Below are positions 13,136 to 48,554 of a DNA stretch of 64,000 nucleotides, piece by piece. Location of the stretch: NCBI GenBank assembly GCA_020081605.1, contig JAHREC010000011.1, forward strand, positions 4,278,001 to 4,342,000, given 5' to 3'. A program made the translations under genes and the position numbers. Below the pieces are notes generated by a model. The model searched no databases. It was not told the DNA's origin and saw only the letters and a list, made by a program, of their open reading frames with translations. Source of the stretch: Albifimbria verrucaria (taxonomy: Eukaryota > Ascomycota > Sordariomycetes > Hypocreales > Stachybotryaceae). Position 1 is the first letter of the stretch, and each line of letters opens with the position of its first letter.

Positions 13136-15138
13136 ATGGACGGCTTCTCGCTAGTCTCTCTCTCCTCTCTCTGCTCGTCGATATCTTGTCGTACGCTTGC
13201 GAGCATTGACGAAGTTGAATCCATCGTTGAGGCTACCCGCCATGAGGGGCTCGCTAGCCTTGTGGGTATGCTCCACGGTGTCAATCGTGGGGTTCTGCAC
13301 CTGGAAGCGTCGTTGAATGCTGCCACGGTCATCTCGACTAAACTACAGACGGATCTAAGCAAGGCTTTGGAAGCATGCGACATTGCCATTGCCGCCTCAC
13401 ACAAGCAACTGGAGCGACTCGGCCTCGGCGATGTGAGCATAGCCAACAAAGCATTTCTGGCCCCTCAGTACGACTTCCTGGCCTCACACATTCAATTATT
13501 TACGTATTTTCAAAAGATTCTTCAAAAGTGAGCCGACGTAAATAGCCTGACTAGAACTATCTCAGTGACTAACCCAATGCTCATAGGCGAAGTGGCCAGG
13601 AACAAGACGTCAGCCTTGAGGTAGAGGGCGTCGCGGTCTTGGCAGAGGCAGACTCTACGATACGCACAATTTCTGAACCCGAAGCCCCTTCGTGGAACCT
13701 GGCGAAGTCAATACTGCAAATAGCCACGCAGAGATCCCTCCGCCATATGACCCTACCGCAGCCTCAGCTCCATCCTTTCCTGGAACTCCGACCTCACCAA
13801 GCAGCAGCAGCTCGCGCAAGTTCTCCTGGTCTGAGTCATTCAAAGCTTTGACGTCCAGTCTCCGGCCAAAGCCAGATCCCATGGTTTCGGCTCTATGTCA
13901 GGCGACTCTGCGCGGAGACGAAAGACAAATATCTGGCTTGGCTTCCCAAGGCGCCAACGTGAACGGACGTGATGAAGAAGGCAACTCGCCCCTGCAGTGT
14001 GCTGTGCAGACGGACCAGGAGGGGCCGCCCAGCTGCTCATCAGCTTGGGCGCAGATTGGAAAAGCTCGACCTGGTCAGGGACTCCACCGTTATTCCAGGC
14101 TGCATCAAAGGGCAGCACAAGAGTGGCTCGTGTGCTCATGAAGAAAGGTGCCCGAGTAGACGAGCGGAGCGTCTCTGGTCAGCCGTACTTTGCAGACGTT
14201 GTTGCTTCTGGGAATGTGGAGGGCATCAAACTCTTGCTAAAGCACGGCGCCAACCCACAAGCTAATAATATCAGCGGTCGACCGGTCTTGGCAATAGCAG
14301 TCAAGAAGGGTAATGTGGAAGTGGCTAGACTGCTTCTAGACCACGGAGCTGATCCAAACGCGAGCGACATCAGTGGTGGTTCGCTCCTATCAATGGCCTC
14401 GGAGAAGGAAGACCTTGCAATGGCAGAGTTGCTCTTGAGCCGCGGAGCCAAGCCAAACTCACGAAGTGTTACTGGAGTTCCAGTCCTGGTCGATGCAATC
14501 TCGAAGAAGCGGCTGGACTACGCCAAGAAACTCCTAGCGTATGGCGCAGACGCCAACGCCAAAGATTGGTACTCGCAGAGCATCTTGGTCGGCGTGATCC
14601 GTGACTCCAAACTCAACTTGGAAGAGAAGATCAATCTGGCGCGTACGCTGCTGGAGCACGGTGCGTCTGCCAACGCCTCGGACCACACTTGGAGTCGACC
14701 GATCATCAGCCACGCCATGGAAATGGGTAGCACGGAGCTTCTTGCGCTTTTACTGCAGCATGGCGCCAAGACAAAGGTGACAATGAGCGGAGGAGAAACA
14801 CTGCTGTTGTATGCGCTGGACCGAGGTGATCGAGATGCTGCTATGCTGCTGCTAGAGCACGGCGCAAGCCCCAAGGTCAAGGACAAAAAGGCCGTACACC
14901 GCTCATGGAAGCGCTTTTGAAACAGGACTTTGAGTTGGTCCATCTACTGGTACAGCACGGCGCTGATGTTAAGATGACGAGTACGGTGTCACCAGCGGAT
15001 GTTGCCAGGGCGATGGGACGGTCGGATATCCTGCAGAGCCTGGGATTGAACGACGAGCCTGTAGTGACGAGGCCGGAGATAAGACGAAAGGAATTGAAAT
15101 CCAGATCGACTGGAGACAGTCTGCTGTCTGATTCCTAA
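13136..15138 (+). CDS. Ankyrin-repeat protein with fungal N-terminal helical domain
   Basis: Probably a cytoplasmic scaffold or signalling protein; no partner can be named. Exon 1 (13136-13527) encodes a helical N-terminus reminiscent of the domain that precedes many fungal STAND and ankyrin proteins. An intron at 13528-13586 (GTGAGC...CATAG) leads to a Ser/Pro-rich linker (PPPYDPTAASAPS) and then about ten ankyrin repeats from residue 250 to near the end, with signatures such as LLLKHGANPQA, LLLDHGADPNA and LLLEHGASPKV. Three frame breaks, at GG 13694-13695, GGGG 14021-14024 and GG 14890-14891, each need one extra G. The corrected model is 648 residues and the repeat spacing is then regular. 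No NACHT or other catalytic domain is present. Confidence 0.8.
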
Positions 15139-17573: not shown

Positions 17574-18524
17574 ATGACCAACAACAACGTCTCTGATGCT
17601 CCTGTCGCCAACGGCAACGGCGCTGCCGCCGAGCCCAAGTCTGCCTTTGCCCTCAAGGCCGGTCTGGCACAGATGCTCAAGGGTGGTGTCATCATGGACG
17701 TGACCAACGCCGAGCAGGCCCGTATCGCTGAGGAGGCCGGAGCGTGTGCCGTCATGGCCCTGGAGCGTGTGCCCGCCGATATTCGCAAGGACGGCGGCGT
17801 TGCCCGCATGTCTGACCCAGCCATGATCAAGGAGATCCAGGCCGCCGTCACCATCCCCGTCATGGCCAAGGCCCGTATCGGCCACTTTGTGGAGTGCCAG
17901 ATCCTTGAGTCCCTGGGCGTCGACTACATTGACGAGAGCGAGGTCCTGACTCCCGCCGACGACGAGAGCCACGTCGAGAAGAGCCCCTTCAGCGTGCCTT
18001 TTGTCTGCGGCTGCCGCAACCTTGGCGAGGCCCTTCGCCGTATTGCCGAGGGTGCTGCCATGATCCGAACCAAGGGTGAGGCCGGTACTGGCGACGTCGT
18101 CGAGGCCGTTCGCCACATGAAGACGGTCAACAAGCAAATCGCTCAGGCCAAGGCCGCTCTCGCCGAGGGTGGCATCATCCGCATCCGCGAGCTCGCTCGT
18201 GAGCTTGAGGTTGACGCTGAGCTGCTGCGCCAAACCGCCGAGGCCGGCCGCCTGCCCGTCGTCAACTTCGCCGCCGGTGGTGTCGCCACCCCTGCCGACG
18301 CGGCCCTCATGATGCAGCTTGGCTGCGACGGAGTATTCGTCGGCAGCGGTATTTTCAAGTCGGGTGACCCAGCGAAGCGTGCCAAGGCCATCGTGCGAGC
18401 CACTACCCACTTCAAGGACCCCAAGGTCCTGGCCGAGTGCAGCTCGGGGCTTGGCGAGGCCATGGTCGGCATAAACTGCGACAGCATGAAGCCCGAGGAG
18501 AAGCTGGCTGGTCGCGGATGGTAA
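17574..18524 (+). CDS. pdx-1: Pyridoxal 5'-phosphate synthase, lyase subunit (SNZ/PdxS type)
   Basis: This enzyme builds pyridoxal phosphate from ribose 5-phosphate, glyceraldehyde 3-phosphate and ammonia supplied by the PDX2 partner; it forms a dodecamer of TIM barrels. The 316-residue frame is uninterrupted and has no intron. Family features include [68 protein letters not shown] and [13 protein letters not shown] near the C-terminus. Length is normal for fungi. Codon use is strongly C-ending, as expected for a highly expressed gene, and unlike most neighbours there is no homopolymer frame break. The TATA box and CT-rich leader upstream support the start. Confidence 0.97.
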
Positions 18525-24282: not shown

Positions 24283-25928
24283 GGCCTTGTTGGTTCAGCT
24301 TAGCAGGAGCGGGTAGTCCAGAGTGGAAAAAGAAGCTAATCAATCAGTTACCATCATGAAATAAACACACCAAAAGCTGGATTTAAAATCAGATTTTCTG
24401 CCCGTGAAACCAACCATTTACTCACCTGCTGTAAAAGCAAAAGAGTAGGTCGATTCTGGCAGGGCCATGACCCTCACGTGACAGTTTCGCCTGATTCATA
24501 CAGCTTCATCATCTGTACTCTGTATGTGGATTAGTATCAGGCGTTGAAGGGACTTCTCAGCTGCGGCTTACCAAGCCAACAACATTGAACGCCAGGATCA
24601 AACAACCTTTGTCTGATCCACCGGCATATCCGGATCCTTACTGCCGTTTGCAAAGGAGATGCCAAAATGGGGCGGGCAAGACTGAGAGAGCCCCATAGTG
24701 GTGGGCCTTGGACCCATCTCAGCAAAATGACTCACTCCATACCAATAGATAGCCAAATACCCGCGACTAATCTTTCATCAAAGGCATCAGCAACATAGCT
24801 CAGGGAAGAGCGACGGGCTCATAACCCGTAGGTCCCTGGATCGAGACCAGGTGTTGCTATGAATCTTCAGATTTTTCTTTTGCCCATTGAATAAGGTGGT
24901 ATACGCCAGCCTCACGATGCAAACTTGCAGTAGCTGTTTTTTCCCTTTCTTTTTTACAATAATAATTTTTTGGGGCCAAGACAAATTCTGTTTGATACAA
25001 AACACTCAATTTATGATTGTTTGAAAGCCCATACAACTCATCATCTATTCTCTCAGCTAGCTAACAAACTTGTTAGTACATGTTCACCCACAGAACCTGC
25101 TACCCCGTACCTTTTTAAGGTATCTACGTGGCAAATAAAGAAAATGACGCAGTGTTTAACTTGAATGCATTACCAGGCACTGTCTAGGCGTAGAAGCGGC
25201 ATGCAAGTGTGCCGTATCTAGATGTGAAATTGTGCAACAGAGATTAGAAATAATATGCATAAGTCAATCATCAATTCGCCCTCAGGTGTCAAGCCAATGG
25301 CGGTAACAGTGTTGATTGCTAGCCAGCCTGCTGCAAGCTGCCGTCCACGCAATGCCTAAACAAGAGCTCTCCTTGTGTGATACTGGCCATGATTTCAGCC
25401 AAGATTCGTCTTTTGGCTTTGCCCTACAAAATCTCCCTTTTCCATGCCACACTCAAGCCAGTCATCTTCCTGTCACCGTCCAAGTTGCCAGTTTACTGAA
25501 ATACCATTCCCATCTTGAGTATCACCCTTTGAAATGAAGTTGATTGCGAGAACATTTACTCACCTCTGCTGTCTCTAGTTTCGTCCTGTACGGTCATCCC
25601 ACGAAGCTCCCTGCTTGCCCATCCCGTCCTCGCCCGGCCGATCTTAAATACCCAACTGGTGGATTTTAATGCGCTACTACCTGCTCTTGGCAGAGTCCCC
25701 GCAAGATCTTGCAGGGCTATACAAGAGCCCTGCAGAGAGCCAGCAATGGATGACAAAATCTCCGATGGCGATCATGTCCAGTGGGTTCGGCCAATATTGG
25801 CACGAACCCCAACGGACCCCGCAAATAGAGGACGCATTTAATGACACACAGGTGAAAGTTCCTGAACACTGGTGCTCACTCGATGGTGTTTACCAATTTG
25901 CGAGCTGCACTACGGGCAACATCTCAAT
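24283..25928. other. Intergenic with one tRNA gene
   Basis: Apart from the tRNA-Met at 24789-24859 nothing is recognisable. T-rich tracts follow the tRNA (24876-24890 and 24939-24970), consistent with RNA polymerase III termination. Confidence 0.5.
24789..24859 (+). tRNA. tRNA-Met (CAT anticodon), elongator type
   Basis: A cloverleaf can be drawn: acceptor stem AGCAACA with TGTTGCT and discriminator A; D-stem GCTC/GAGC; anticodon stem ACGGG/CCCGT with loop CTCATAA (CAT at 24820-24822); T-stem CCTGG/CCAGG with loop ATCGAGA. There is no intron. The D-loop is short (AGGGAA), possibly another lost base in this assembly. The lack of an initiator-type A1-T72 pairing pattern with GGG/CCC-only context is not decisive, so elongator is the likely but not certain class. 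Confidence 0.92.
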
Positions 25929-30924: not shown

Positions 30925-30933
30925 TATTTAAAT
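30925..30933 (+). promoter_or_regulatory. TATA-like box of the snoRNA host locus
   Basis: TATTTAAAT is followed by a CT-rich stretch with CTTCC/CTTCTT repeats, a common arrangement at transcription starts of strongly expressed fungal genes. The first predicted donor is at 30991. Confidence 0.5.
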
Positions 30934-30990
30934 CCTTCCTCTCACCAGCTCTCCTCGATCTTCCTTCTTCCTTCTTCATCATCCTTCAAG

Positions 30991-31730
30991 GTTTGTGGTT
31001 TGTTCCAACACCGACTACACATTCCTCTTAGGCCTTCCATTCTTTCTTGGTAAGTCTCCTCCTCCTCCTTCGACACTGACTTCTTTTAGGTCTTCTCCCA
31101 TTCTTCCTTGGTAAGTCTCCACCCCTTTGACACTGACTTCTCTCATCTAGATTCTCTCCCTTCTTGTCTTTCTTGGTAAGTCTCTTCCACCTCCTTCAAC
31201 ACTAACTTCTCTTAGGTCTTCTTCTTTTCTTCATTCTTGGTCAGTATTACCCATCTCCTTTGACACTGACTTTATTCTTCTAGATTTTCTCCTTTTCCTT
31301 TTTGTACTGGTAAGTCGACTCCTCCTCCTCTCACACTGACTTCACTCTTCTATATTCTCTTCCTTCTTACCTAGGTAAGCCTCCTCCTTTCATGTTAACT
31401 TCTTCCAGGTTTTTCTTCCTCTTTCATTCTTTCCAGTAAGTCTCCTCCTCCTCCTCCCCACGCTGACTTCTTCCAGATTTTCCTCCCTCCTTTATTCATA
31501 GTGAGTCTCCTCCTCCTCTCATGCTAACTTCGTCCAGGTTTTTCTCCCTCCTTCATTCAAGGTAAGTCTTCTCCTCCTCCTCTCATGCTGACTTTTTCTA
31601 GATTCCCCTCCCTCCTTCATTCTGGTAAGTCTCCTCCTTCTCCTCTCACACTAACTTGTCTTAGGCTTTCTTCCCTTCTTCACCGTCCTTTGACAAGCAT
31701 CCTCCTATCACCTCTCCTCCTCATCTCAGG
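30991..31730 (+). repeat. Tandem array of 34-44 nt introns and 18-27 nt micro-exons
   Basis: Donors lie at 30991, 31050, 31111, 31176, 31240, 31310, 31375, 31436, 31501, 31562 and 31625, spaced 59-70 bp. Matching acceptors end at 31031, 31089, 31150, 31215, 31283, 31408, 31476, 31537, 31601 and 31664. Each unit has GTAAGT (variants GTCAGT, GTGAGT, GTAAGC, GTTTGT), a CTCCTCCTCC-like spacer, a CTGAC, CTAAC or TTAAC branch motif and TAG or CAG. The splice signals are retained although the rest of each unit drifts. The unit with donor at 31310 has TAT in place of TAG at 31351-31353. Exons are nearly pure pyrimidine (for example CTTCATTCTTG). Confidence 0.8.
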
Positions 31731-31764
31731 TAAGTCCTTCATTTCTGCTCTTCTCCTCCTATCG

Positions 31765-31830
31765 CCCCAGTGATGACTTTGATTTGGGTTCTTCAGACTT
31801 CTCTGATGAAAAGAAATCATATCTGAGGGG
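31765..31830 (+). ncRNA. Box C/D snoRNA-like element a (intronic)
   Basis: Box C is GTGATGA (31770-31776), C' is CTGATGA (31803-31809) and box D is CTGA (31823-31826). A terminal stem CCCC/GGGG brackets the boxes. D' is a weak CAGA at 31794. It sits in the intron 31730-31900, about 70 nt before the acceptor, a usual distance for intronic C/D snoRNAs. It shares GATTTGGGTTCTTCAG with element c, the probable guide region next to D'. The target was not determined. Confidence 0.7.
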
Positions 31831-31969
31831 AAAAATCTTCACTCTTCTTTTCTCTCTTTCACATGTTGGCTTGGATTTTGACTGACTTTTCCATTTACAG
31901 TTCGCACTTCGTCTCGACAAGAACTCTGCTAAGTCCCTTTTCTCCTTTTCTTGCTTGTTGCTAACCTCC

Positions 31970-31999
31970 GATCCCCAATGATGAGTCTTCTGAGGGATC
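31970..31999 (+). ncRNA. Collapsed C/D-like element b
   Basis: A terminal stem GATCCC/GGGATC flanks box C ATGATGA (31978-31984) and box D CTGA (31990-31993), with only five bases between the boxes. It lies in an intron ending at 32061. The spacing is too short for a normal guide RNA, so it may be an internally deleted copy of element a or c, or a new kind of element. Confidence 0.4.
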
Positions 32000-32119
32000 T
32001 CCCTTCTTCCTGTTTTTGTTCTTTCTCGTGGTCCTTGGCTAACTTCTACCCATGTCTCTAGTCTGCTCGGTCGAAACTCATTGGTAAGTTACCCATTTCC
32101 TCACTTTCATTCCTGCCCA

Positions 32120-32184
32120 CCCCCAATGATGAGTTAGATTTGGGTTCTTCAGGCTTCTGACGAACCCGAATCACTTCTGAGGGG
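32120..32184 (+). ncRNA. Box C/D snoRNA-like element c (intronic)
   Basis: Box C ATGATGA (32126-32132), C' TGACGA (32158-32163) and box D CTGA (32177-32180) are bracketed by CCCC/GGGG. It is a diverged paralogue of element a, keeping the guide-like GATTTGGGTTCTTCAG but differing upstream of box D (CCCGAATCACTT here). It lies in the intron 32084-32248, about 65 nt before the acceptor. Confidence 0.7.
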
Positions 32185-32331
32185 TCCTCTTCTTTCCATC
32201 TCATCTGAATGTCACCACCAAGAACGCTGACTACTTTTCTGACTACAGGTCGTCCTCCATGGCCTTTACATTTTTCACCCCTGTGAGTACTCCTGTTCCC
32301 TTTTCATTTCAGCTTACTGACCAAGTCTTCC

Positions 32332-32349
32332 CGGGCTTCTTCAAGCCCG
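32332..32349 (+). other. Perfect 7-bp hairpin in the host transcript
   Basis: CGGGCTT and AAGCCCG pair around a CTTC loop. It lies between the donor at 32283 and a possible acceptor at 32352. It might shape splicing or stop a polymerase, but no T-run follows. Confidence 0.5.
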
Positions 32350-32985
32350 TTAGTGAAACTTCTCTCTACTGGTCTGGTAAGTCTTTCGTCCGTCTCCTTA
32401 CTGACAAGTTATAAGGCACTTCTTCTTTACTACCAAGCTAAGCTGACTACTTTCGCTCTCTCCTCTTTCTTCAGAATGGATGCTGACATTTCTCGCAGAT
32501 AAGAATCGAGACTCCTTGACGATCGATCGACAATGCTGTGAACAAACGAGGAGACACAAGACTCCTGCTCGAACGAACAAAAGAACAACCGAAAGCCGTT
32601 ACGCTTCGTAACAGGCCAAGGTATACCCGCGACACCATGGCTTGTAAGTTCTCGCTATCCTTCCTCTGCTCCTCCTACTGACTGTCTGTAGGACTACTAG
32701 TCGAGGTAAACTGTCCCCCTCGTCTCGCTTGCTGACCAGGCCACAGATGAGCCAACTTGAGTAGAATGGTCTTCAGAGAACCGGTAAGTTCGCTCTTCAT
32801 CTTGGTGACTCTGCGCTAACATTTTGGTCCAGATGACTACCCGACTTCATTCCCATCTTTCGGGCGACCGATCCTTTCGAACCTGGTGGACACGTCCACC
32901 GGATACAAACACAAATCCTCGATGAGTAAGACTCGCCCCTCTATTCGATCTTCCTTTACATACCGCTCTGTTTTCTTTTGCTCTC

Positions 32986-33077
32986 TCGCAAATGATGAAA
33001 TGTCTGATGGTTTGAGGTGTTTGCACTAAGCCTAGGCAGTGTGCTTCGCCGATGATATAACCACATCTCTGATGCGA
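32986..33077 (+). ncRNA. Box C/D snoRNA-like element d
   Basis: A terminal stem TCGCA/TGCGA encloses box C ATGATGA (32992-32998) and box D CTGA (33069-33072). An internal CTGA at 33004 and GATGATA at 33051 could be D' and C'. The sequence before box D (TATAACCACATCT) is a guide candidate. It shares its terminal-stem end (CTGATGCG) with elements e1-e3. Confidence 0.6.
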
Positions 33078-33400
33078 ACTACTCCCTCCCTTTTCTTTGT
33101 TTTGCTTCGTACTTCCCTCTTCCCCGATTCAGTCATTGGAGCGTCAGAATTTAGCCGAGTGGCAGGTTGTTTGCGCTTCAGTAGCTCTTGAATTTTGAGA
33201 GCCTCTGTCTTCTCTTCGGTGTCCGAGTGAGGTCGTTGAAACATGGTGTATCGCCTAGTGGCTATACACCTTGTCCTGCGACTCTCCTCTCTCGCTCAGG
33301 TAGGTGTTTTACTATTTTCTTTCCTTCATTCGCCCGATTGAAGTAGTTGGAGTGTTTGCATCTTGCCAAGTGGTAGGGTGCTTGCGTTTCAACGACTCTC
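33009..33400 (+). repeat. Three diverged copies of a 40-65 bp element
   Basis: Related segments occur at 33009-33048 (inside element d), 33126-33188 and 33335-33400. The shared core reads like GGAGTGT, then GCC.AGTGG.AGG.TG and TTGCG.TTCA. The copies are more diverged than the e1-e3 snoRNA copies. No C or D boxes are evident in the second and third copies. Confidence 0.5.
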
Positions 33401-33430
33401 TGTCAGGAAGGCATCTAGATATGTCCTCCT

Positions 33431-33538
33431 CCGCCGCAAATGATGACACCCCACGACACAGCAAGCCAACTCCATGGCTGCACAAGTCGAGTCCTCTAGC
33501 AGTGCTAGATTGTGTACTGATGCGGCGGTTCTCTTTAT
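33431..33538 (+). ncRNA. Box C/D snoRNA-like copy e1
   Basis: A perfect 8-bp terminal stem CCGCCGCA/TGCGGCGG encloses box C ATGATGA (33440-33446) and box D CTGA (33527-33530). Two internal hairpins are possible: AGCCA/TGGCT and CTAGC/GCTAG. The sequence just before box D (GCTAGATTGTGTA) is conserved in all three copies and is the best guide candidate. Confidence 0.75.
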
Positions 33539-33600
33539 TTTCCCGATTTATTTGTGCTTCAATTCTACCCACTTGTCTTTGAAGCGGTAGATTTCTTCGT

Positions 33601-33694
33601 GCGCAAATGATGAGACCCTAATGACACAGCAAGCCACCCCCATGGCTGCGCAAGTCGAATCCTCTGGCAAATGCTAGAGTGTGTACTGATGCGG
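33601..33694 (+). ncRNA. Box C/D snoRNA-like copy e2
   Basis: Second copy, with box C at 33607-33613 and box D at 33686-33689. The internal AGCCA/TGGCT hairpin is kept although its loop differs, and CTGGC/GCTAG is kept with a G-U pair. The terminal stem is weaker (CGCA/TGCG). Confidence 0.72.
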
Positions 33695-33752
33695 TTATTC
33701 TCCTCTTGTTTATTGCGTTATGGTTGGCTTTGTTCCATATTGCTTCACACAC

Positions 33753-33843
33753 TGCAAATGATGAGATCCTACGACACAGCGAGCCAACTCCATGGCTGCA
33801 CAAGTCTGATCCTCTAGCAGTGCTAGAGTGTGCACTGATGCGG
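33753..33843 (+). ncRNA. Box C/D snoRNA-like copy e3
   Basis: Third copy, with box C at 33759-33765, box D at 33835-33838 and terminal stem CTGCA/TGCGG. Both internal hairpins are present. It ends 356 bp before the stop codon of the convergent choice-of-anchor B gene. Confidence 0.72.
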
Positions 33844-34198
33844 CCAAATTATTCCGAGCAAATTATTGTGTCGATGGTACTAGAGAATGAGGTAGATAGT
33901 TACGTAGCTGGTGATTGACATGAAGTTCTTTAATACTTGTGCACATCATGTATTTGTCGTGAAGTGACTTAGAGACGTCTACTCTGGTGTGTGTAAGCCG
34001 TTACAGTACTCATTACACAATCATGTTATGGATTGGCCAAGCATATCACATCTGGCACTTTGCTCAAGTTTGTCAGATATTTGCATGTCATCATTATTTT
34101 ACTTTTGTCTATGTTTTGGGATATTGACTACTTCCTCCTCCATGTTCATGAGCAAGAGTTATGTCCCTGTCCTTCTCATATACCTCACATCTACTAAC

Positions 34199-46356: not shown

Positions 46357-47410
46357 GCGCCGGTGATGATGCCGTGAGACTTGCGTCACACGGAATGGTG
46401 AGTTTAACACCAAAGCCTTAGTTCGAACTTCGCTAATCTGTCCGATCAGGATCCTATATAATTATGACATGGCTGCGCTTGTCATTTCATTACGACGGCC
46501 TACAAATCCCATCACGCTGACGCCGAACGATTGAGAGCCGTTTCCACCCGAGTAATTCGGACGGCACGACAAGACGGTGGAGTTTTGCGACGCTTTGCAG
46601 AATACAAACGGGCATTTGGCTATCACATGCGACGATGGTCAATCGTGGATTGCCATTTTACGCGACTCTGAGGCTGGACGGTCTGAAATTGACCAAAGAG
46701 CACACAAGGTGGCCAACCCTTCCCTCCCTCTGGGGAGGCAGAATAGACAAACCGAAGTATGGCAATGACTTCATGGGGATGAAGATAATGTGAAGATTTA
46801 TGAGAATTTTCTTTGCCAATAATTGCTAAGAGACGACAACGTTTGATACTGAGAGTCGGGCTATCACAGGCCTAGGAGAACAGCTTGATTGGATCTTCGA
46901 TATAGAGGGCGCTTGAAGGGTCTTCTACAAGGCTGCCAGGAGCGGCGTTTTGTGAATTGGAAAATGGGGTATACCTCGCGGAATTGGAGTTCAGCTGTTT
47001 TTACAATATACTCTTTTGCTTGCGGATGTTTGTCTGATTGAATGTGACTCGCTCTATTTGCCTATGCTTGAGATATGTTACTGCTATTTTGGCACGTTGC
47101 TGAACCAAGCACGCAGCCTTGTCTCGTTTCCCGTGATAGAAATGGTCATCTCAGTTCCTACTCACCAACAAAGCAAGACGATGGTATATTTCTCTATCGC
47201 CTAGATACATTGCCAAGACTAGCTCATTCACCTCCTAATGCCATAGCCCGTCTTTGCTCAGCACCCAGTCATATGTTCAGGTTGAAACCGCATTCGCGTC
47301 CGCGTATACCCCTTGGTCTCTTGGTTAATACTCTTCCGTGAGTGGTCACTATATTCATCCTTATGCCATAGTCGCACGGCTAATAATTCCATAGAACACT
47401 TACCTGGCGC
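46357..47410. other. Intergenic
   Basis: No coding feature or RNA gene recognised between the Ala/Pro-rich gene and the convergent cyclase-family gene. Confidence 0.45.
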
Positions 47411-48554
47411 TTAAAGGATGGCAAGTGCATTCGGCGGAGATCCGATCAAGTGTGGGAGGTTCAATGGTGCCGACGTGATCATGAAAGAATAACGCTTGGC
47501 CTTTTGGCAGTACTCTGCCAGTCGCCTCAAATCCCAAAGCTCGCCAATTGGCATGCCAAAGCAGGAAAGCATATATTCGTGAAGAACTGTGACCGGTTAA
47601 CTTCATAACCCCTCTAGATATCTTACGAGCACACATACTGAGGTTTCCCGCTGGGTTAGTGTTTCCATCAGGCCCACGAGGAGGATATGCTTCCAAAGCC
47701 AACGAGTCCGACGCAACAGCAGCAAACCGCTTATTCCAGAGCCACCGGGCCGTTTCTTCTGCACCATTAAGACCGCTGAAATGGCCCTTAACCAGAGCTT
47801 TGCCCAGCTCCTCAGCAGAAGAGTCTTCGACGAATTCGGTTTGCCCAGTCCTAATGAGAAGAATGTCTCCAGGATGAAACTCAACACCTTGGTGCACAGC
47901 ACACGCATCCAGCTCCTCGGCCGTGATGAATGAAGACCCAAATGGTTCGTATTCCTTTCCTACAGCCTCAGAGTAGGCTTTGAAGTCAAGCAGCACACCT
48001 CTACCAACCACGCAACCACGGGAATGCCAGCTTTCTAGCGTCGGCAGCCTGTCATTTTCTGTAGGATCAGCACTGAGCTTCTCACGAGTAGCTTTAGCAC
48101 CATTGTAGTTCCGCCCAGTATGCTGATGCGCATAATGGCAGAAACTGTCCCATTGACTACTGGACTGCGTGTTGATTTCAATTTCATCGTCCCAGGCATG
48201 GTCAATGTCACTGCCTTCCTCCGCTGCCTTCTCGGCAAAAGAGAAAAAGGTGTGCTTGGGCTGCCTGCGTCCAGGTATCGGTAACTTGGCAAAGCCATTC
48301 AAAGGCCAGCTGAGCATGAAAGTTAGTATCATGAGCTCTTGGTCAGGTATTTCTTTAGGAACAGTATTACTTGAGAGAGATTGAGACACCGTCCTTAACT
48401 TCAGAAGCTGCGGCCTTGACGACTTCAGGGCTGAGAAAATTGAGCGTCCCATATGTGTCTTTCTTTCCATCGCGATCGAAAACACCCCAAGCGCAGCCCT
48501 GAGGCATGCCTTCAACCTTTGGGAGGTCGTCGAAGTCTGGGACTGAGGGATCAT
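47411..48554 (-). CDS. Cyclase-family (PF04199-type) metal-dependent hydrolase
   Basis: Resembles the fungal cyclase/kynurenine-formamidase-like superfamily. Signature segments are GMPQGCAWGVFDRDGKKD, SQWDSFCHYAHQ, YNGAKATRE, SRGCVVGRGVLLDF and HPGDILLIRTG; His and Asp in these probably bind metal. Introns lie at 48310-48370 (GTAATA...CTCAG) and 47587-47638 (GTATGT...CACAG). Together they restore SLNWPLNGF and NLILHEYMLSCFGMPIGEL, and the C-terminus ends in SPPNALAIL. The start at 48554 (MIP) needs one extra base in the GGG run 48547-48549 to run into SVPDFDDLPKVEG, as in relatives. The model has 343 residues. Its physiological substrate is unknown; tryptophan breakdown is possible but not indicated by neighbours. 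Confidence 0.82.

Follow-up and report, generated by a model that had tools for sequence, protein, structure and literature searches.

A tandem ladder of intron-like units

The window analysed here, a stretch of 64,000 nucleotides from Albifimbria verrucaria, contains a tRNA gene at positions 24789 to 24859 (64.2 bits) and neighbouring open reading frames with Pfam matches to ankyrin repeats (13997 to 14917), SOR/SNZ (17574 to 18521), cytochrome P450 (23062 to 24279), and a putative cyclase (47403 to 48554); in the Pfam scan of 10 open reading frames of the window, 5 of the 10 had no family at E values up to 0.001. The protein matches of an Ecm29-like open reading frame comprise Thermothelomyces and Xylaria as well as other ascomycetes, pointing tentatively to a Sordariomycete, and a second protein search gave no match. 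At 30991 to 31730, on the plus strand like the snoRNA candidates and the intron-like stretches described below, the listing of donor-, branch-, and AG-like sites over positions 30941 to 31760 gave 12 donors (30991, 31050, 31111, 31176, 31240, 31310, 31375, 31436, 31501, 31562, 31625, and 31730), which alternate strictly with branch sites and acceptors. Overall, about eleven sets of intron signals form a ladder built of repeats and placed ahead of a group of snoRNA candidates.

A TATA-like element (TATTTAAAT, 30925 to 30933) may represent, judging from its position, the promoter of a host transcript, and it is followed by a pyrimidine-rich stretch that can be read as the first exon (30950 to 30990, with an assumed 5' end). 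The first intron-like unit, numbered unit 0 (30991 to 31031, 41 nt), has the donor GTTTGT, the acceptor TAG, and, by eye, a doubtful branch site (CCGAC). Ten full units follow, from 31050 to 31664. As drawn by parsing the sequence, mini-introns 1 to 4 occupy 31050 to 31089, 31111 to 31150, 31176 to 31215, and 31240 to 31283, with lengths of 40, 40, 40, and 44 nt, and, after the broken unit 5, mini-introns 6 to 10 occupy 31375 to 31408, 31436 to 31476, 31501 to 31537, 31562 to 31601, and 31625 to 31664, with lengths of 34, 41, 37, 40, and 40 nt. The exons between them measure 18 to 27 nt, and the final exon measures 65 nt.

Seven of the ten full units carry the donor GTAAGT, with GTCAGT (31240, mini-intron 4), GTAAGC (31375, mini-intron 6), and GTGAGT (31501, mini-intron 8) occurring once each, and their branch sites read CTGAC in six cases, CTAAC in three, and TTAAC in one (mini-intron 6). 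In terms of a wider consensus, nine of the 10 clear branch sites follow RCTRAC and one follows RTTAAC. The distance from the donor to the branch A is 24 to 31 nt across the ladder, and that from the branch A to the end of the AG is 10 nt in seven and 14 nt in two of the nine units with an intact acceptor, which is either TAG or CAG. A canonical donor, an RCTRAC-type branch site, and a YAG acceptor, that is, the U2-type signal set, are thus found along the ladder, save one local acceptor and the doubtful branch of the first unit. It follows that the original prediction, according to which every unit holds a complete set of splice signals, applies to most units but not to unit 5, and for unit 0 the branch site leaves it in doubt.

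In particular, unit 5 (31310 to 31374) has lost its local acceptor, with TAT at 31351 to 31353 where the sister units have TAG. The next AG (31374, in the context CCTAG) directly abuts the donor GTAAGC at 31375, which leaves an exon of zero length. In sequence, this is the arrangement of complex introns without an intervening exon, in which an acceptor is directly followed by a donor. An intron starting at 31310 would measure 65 nt if it ended at 31374, or 99 nt if it used the acceptor at 31408.

The array is rich in pyrimidines (fraction of 0.767 over 696 nt, against a background maximum of 0.668), and its pyrimidine tract sits between the donor and the branch site, the location reported as the commonest in Fusarium (83%; PMC5677156) and in Trichoderma (69%; PMC4324775). 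We also considered the avoidance of AG dinucleotides, of which there are 25 in the 696 nt; since purines are few, it was not counted as evidence.

Box C/D snoRNA candidates downstream of the ladder

The ladder lies in the context of a probable snoRNA host, a circumstance that the original prediction had missed. A scan of both strands of the window for a C box, a D box, and a 4-bp stem gave 7 matches, 6 of which lie between 31770 and 33838, all on the plus strand, which is the strand of the ladder, and none on the minus strand. Several box C/D candidates, each with a C box, a D box, and a terminal stem, are therefore present on one strand, as in a host gene.

The last donor of the ladder (31730) opens the putative intron around candidate 1, which extends from C box to D box over 31770 to 31826; this intron (31730 to 31900, 171 nt) has the branch site CTGAC, recognized by eye. 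Candidate 2 (32126 to 32180), identified by the scan and by sequence comparison as a paralogue of candidate 1, is enclosed in a second putative intron, also traced by eye (32084 to 32248, 165 nt), and a donor, a branch site, and an acceptor can be read around both candidates. The C box of candidates 1 and 2, together with a guide-like stretch that they share, occurs at these two sites only in the genome. Between the two introns, at 31973 to 31996, there is a collapsed C/D remnant, belonging to repeat family D3, whose C and D boxes are a few bases apart and which looks as if its guide part had been deleted. Farther downstream, pattern matching identified two intron-like stretches of ordinary size without a snoRNA (32644 to 32691, 48 nt, and 32784 to 32832, 49 nt), followed by candidate 3 (32992 to 33072), known from the scan.

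Candidates 4 (33440 to 33520), 5 (33607 to 33689), and 6 (33758 to 33838) were recognized both by the scan and as a repeat family, with 5 and 6 being tandem paralogues of 4. The members of this trio, of about 80 nt, have a common core containing CCATGGCTG and are present only here in the genome. In the interval between candidates 3 and 4 (33130 to 33420), two similar stretches could be noticed by eye, TTGGAG...GTGGCAGG and TTGGAG...GTGGTAGG; the interval has no Rfam match at E values up to 1.

On the basis of boxes, stems, and paralogy, candidates 1 to 6 are likely to be snoRNAs. None of them matches a curated snoRNA family: over the snoRNA region, the Rfam search gave subthreshold matches only, none reaching the gathering threshold, among which candidate 1 resembled SNORD59 with 25.2 bits versus a gathering value of 45. 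The search for guides to 18S rRNA gave two matches of 10 to 11 nt, neither of them beside a D or D' box, and covered the readable 18S sequence, as 5,000 of the 7,701 bases of the rDNA stretch are N.

Occurrence of the ladder and coding potential

The compact-intron pattern matches 9 times in the array, against a mean of 0.026 and a maximum of 1 in 500 dinucleotide shuffles. In a background sample of the same genome, drawn from the two strands of 20 stretches of 10 kb (contigs C8 and C15) and of 61 kb of the window (522,000 strand-bases), there are 62 such matches, and no interval of 750 nt holds more than 2. Chance is thus excluded as the source of the ladder, and, given the strict order of the signals and the frequency of pattern matches compared to the shuffles, the serial arrangement of mini-intron signals that had been predicted at this place is real.

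When the 48.4-Mb assembly (41 contigs) was searched at the DNA level, with simple repeats skipped, the array was found at its own place only. An introner-like spread was considered and rejected, as near-identical copies in many genes are absent from this search of the own genome, simple repeats being skipped. Furthermore, a genome-wide pattern of branch site, acceptor, microexon, and donor with the array's letters gave 3 matches, 2 of them being the array, compared to 4 in the backward control, and no second ladder of the array's sequence is therefore seen. Outside the genome, the viral-contig scan gave no relatives, and the genome-contig scan gave 3 bacterial matches, which we take as due to chance.

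We also examined whether the ladder might be a general habit of the snoRNA genes of this genome. Four other snoRNA loci, L036 to L039, were compared, two with Rfam matches above the cut-off (RF00309 and RF00476) and two, L038 and L039, with matches below it (RF00086 and RF00016), and about 3 kb was covered at each. The compact-intron pattern occurs 1, 0, 0, and 0 times at these loci and 11 times in the host region of the ladder, 9 of these matches being the ladder itself. No ladder is present in the 3 kb or so covered at any of the four loci, a span beyond which a farther one would be missed, and a general habit was rejected on this basis (0 of 4 loci).

As regards coding potential, the leader spliced as drawn (318 nt) has no ATG, and protein coding was rejected on this ground; the unspliced leader has 3 ATGs, all of them intronic as drawn. 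Eight open reading frames of at least 30 amino acids (33 to 62) overlap 30950 to 31760, and translation of the unspliced sequence from 31000 to 33900 gave no open reading frame of at least 150 amino acids. The suggestion that the transcript is noncoding thus appears likely to be correct.

Repeat structure and conservation of the splice signals

At the ladder, Tandem Repeats Finder reports periods of 61 to 64 and of 126 to 129. In the alignment of the units, units 6 to 10 alternate between TTAAC or CTAAC and CTGAC branch sites, together with a G or an A as the first base of the exon, an alternation that bears the mark of two-unit copying. The sequence indicates that the ladder grew by tandem duplication of both monomers and dimers, and, because of the two-unit pattern, the variation of the signals is partly inherited in blocks.

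The splice signals have changed less than the spacers across the units. On a neighbour-joining tree of the ten units, for which the non-signal columns were used, the parsimony steps per column amount to 0.64 in the 14 signal columns versus 1.55 in the 49 others (P = 0.007), and to 0.2 in the five essential columns (GT, branch A, and AG; P = 0.008). In the ten-unit alignment the consensus is kept in 127 of 138 cells of the signal columns versus 371 of 475 cells of the other columns that are filled in at least 8 units, and the difference is also recovered by column permutation (P = 0.002) and within base classes (P = 0.005 for pyrimidine columns and P = 0.0016 for purine columns); for all these statistics, the units are few and related, and their cells are not independent.

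These data bear on the possibility that the array is a plain minisatellite, that is, a CT-rich promoter or leader repeat which expanded around an old intron, without splicing, and whose copies arose too recently for the signals to have decayed. The CTCCTCC tracts could invite slippage, 11 of the 49 non-signal columns are likewise invariant, and units 6 to 9 differ from each other by only 0.16 to 0.22 outside the signals. However, the divergence outside the signals reaches 0.51 among the units, and yet only 1 change is seen among the 50 letters that make up GT, branch A, and AG in the ten units, and we consider this explanation unlikely. It follows that the reading of signal variation as a trace of selection, put forward in the original prediction, can be retained in part: the signals are indeed better kept, both on the tree and within base classes, but the exchange between CTGAC and CTAAC and that between A and G at the first exon base reflect largely the duplication pattern, and invariant columns occur outside the signals as well.

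Intron size and possible modes of splicing

The lengths of 34 to 44 nt given by the original prediction correspond to the introns as drawn, but they fall below the range of about 48 to 67 nt in which introns are detectable in our sample. In the 261-kb sample, considering both strands, pattern-defined introns of 48 to 67 nt number 39 candidates versus 2 in the control, whereas those of 20 to 47 nt number 10 versus 12, with no excess below 48 nt; the two controls, identical by construction as both strands were used, count as one. Moreover, a donor-to-branch distance of 31 nt or less is found in 2 of the 42 background candidates of 46 to 70 nt. On the other hand, the shortest introns reported for core genes of Fusarium measure 42 nt (PMC5677156) and about 36% of Schizosaccharomyces pombe introns are described as shorter than 49 bp (PMC4079972), so that, judging from these sources, an intron of about 40 nt is not impossible in an ascomycete, and the statement that such short introns are unfamiliar in this group was too wide.

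It is possible to hypothesize, if only tentatively, that 24 to 31 nt between donor and branch site are too few and that each donor pairs with the next or a further unit, with working introns of about 99 to 135 nt or more and many isoforms. Pairing each donor with the next unit gives introns of 99 to 135 nt with donor-to-branch distances of 87 to 100 nt, and such skipping would agree with the lack of an excess of introns below 48 nt in the sample and with the two-unit duplication periods; the broken acceptor of unit 5 would be cheap, and exon skipping is reported in the snoRNA hosts of Neurospora crassa (PMC2780460) and Aspergillus nidulans (PMC4046813), as far as these reports describe it. Against this, all the branch sites and 9 of the 10 acceptors are kept, while, if every second one were used, the rest should decay, and short introns are reported in Fusarium and S. 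pombe, as mentioned above. A further possibility, which we also hold to be doubtful, is that the units are spliced singly, as introns of 34 to 44 nt, and that the ladder is kept since early and repeated splicing raises the output of the transcript or determines the order in which the snoRNA introns are removed. It is plausible that the units are spliced serially as drawn, and the chances appear evenly balanced that this holds for most of them, with skipping being common.

The ladder as the proposed leader of a snoRNA host gene

With the C/D candidates downstream on the same strand, and with the putative intron of candidate 1 starting at the last donor, the simplest interpretation of the ladder is that of a snoRNA-host leader. 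In particular, we suggest, with a probability of roughly 60%, that it represents the 5' leader of a noncoding polycistronic box C/D snoRNA host gene, in which an intron has been copied in tandem and its signals are under selection. Transcription, splicing, and the cause of the selection are what we infer here from the DNA sequence.

In such a gene, one small intron with a short pyrimidine exon would have undergone tandem copying, by one unit or by two units at a time. With noncoding exons and with the snoRNAs located downstream, additional copies would be cheap provided that they are removed by splicing. If a copy kept its donor but lost its acceptor, that donor would pair with an acceptor farther downstream, and snoRNA introns could be skipped as a result. 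Each functional donor would thus need an acceptor ahead of the snoRNA introns, so that broken copies would be selected against, and the signals would be kept while the spacers drift.

As to the origin of the units, they might descend from snoRNA introns that were emptied of their snoRNAs, an idea that is compatible with the host-leader interpretation and that we regard as quite improbable. The collapsed remnant at 31973 to 31996 suggests snoRNA loss inside the gene, and the two stretches farther downstream (48 and 49 nt) offer examples of intron-like sequence without a snoRNA; nevertheless, the C/D scan gave no candidate inside the array.

If the ladder is spliced as drawn, about ten introns would be contained in 700 nt, all of them smaller than those detected in their surroundings. 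It would then provide a natural test of how close donor and branch site can be for the fungal spliceosome to tolerate them, and of the competition between neighbouring sites, and it would illustrate the growth of intron number through tandem copying in a noncoding snoRNA host, free of coding constraint.

Comparison with known systems

Noncoding polycistronic hosts of box C/D snoRNA clusters are reported in N. crassa (PMC2780460), and a cluster on chromosome V of A. nidulans has the same kind of host (PMC4046813); in these reports the hosts are likened to UHG/gas5, and alternative splicing is described. The locus studied here resembles them in having C/D snoRNA candidates, the first two of which can be read as lying in serial putative introns, in a predicted transcript without a long open reading frame, and, different from these hosts as described, it has a leader of tandem empty mini-introns. 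Among the matches listed from the open-licence literature, in the portions of text that these covered, no fungal snoRNA host was described with empty mini-introns arrayed as a tandem ladder. In the same genome, L038 (contig C15, near 1371871; below the SNORD27 cut-off) appears by eye to be a cluster of several snoRNAs with a simple first exon or leader. Read as the own-genome counterpart of cluster I, a reading made below the Rfam cut-off, this locus has 0 compact-intron matches.

Complex introns without an intervening exon have been reported in fungal snoRNA clusters, for which stepwise removal or alternative acceptors are proposed (PMC3596301). The acceptor at 31374 against the donor at 31375, as well as the way in which intron modules appear to be gained and lost within a putative noncoding host, recall these introns as they are presented there; different from them, the juxtaposition occurs here, at the level of the DNA, in one unit of a repeat of putative empty introns. 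A likeness can also be noticed with SNHG14 and its SNORD116/SNORD115 arrays, where a noncoding snoRNA host is made of many tandem intron-exon modules, but in that mammalian gene, according to the account consulted, the repeated introns carry snoRNAs (PMC11608373), whereas the introns of the ladder are empty and measure about 40 nt. Finally, the ladder shares with the reported gain of introns by tandem genomic duplication (PMC4974935) the generation of new introns through tandem copying and, different from the route outlined in that source, the unit copied here would already have contained a whole intron and is present in about ten copies.
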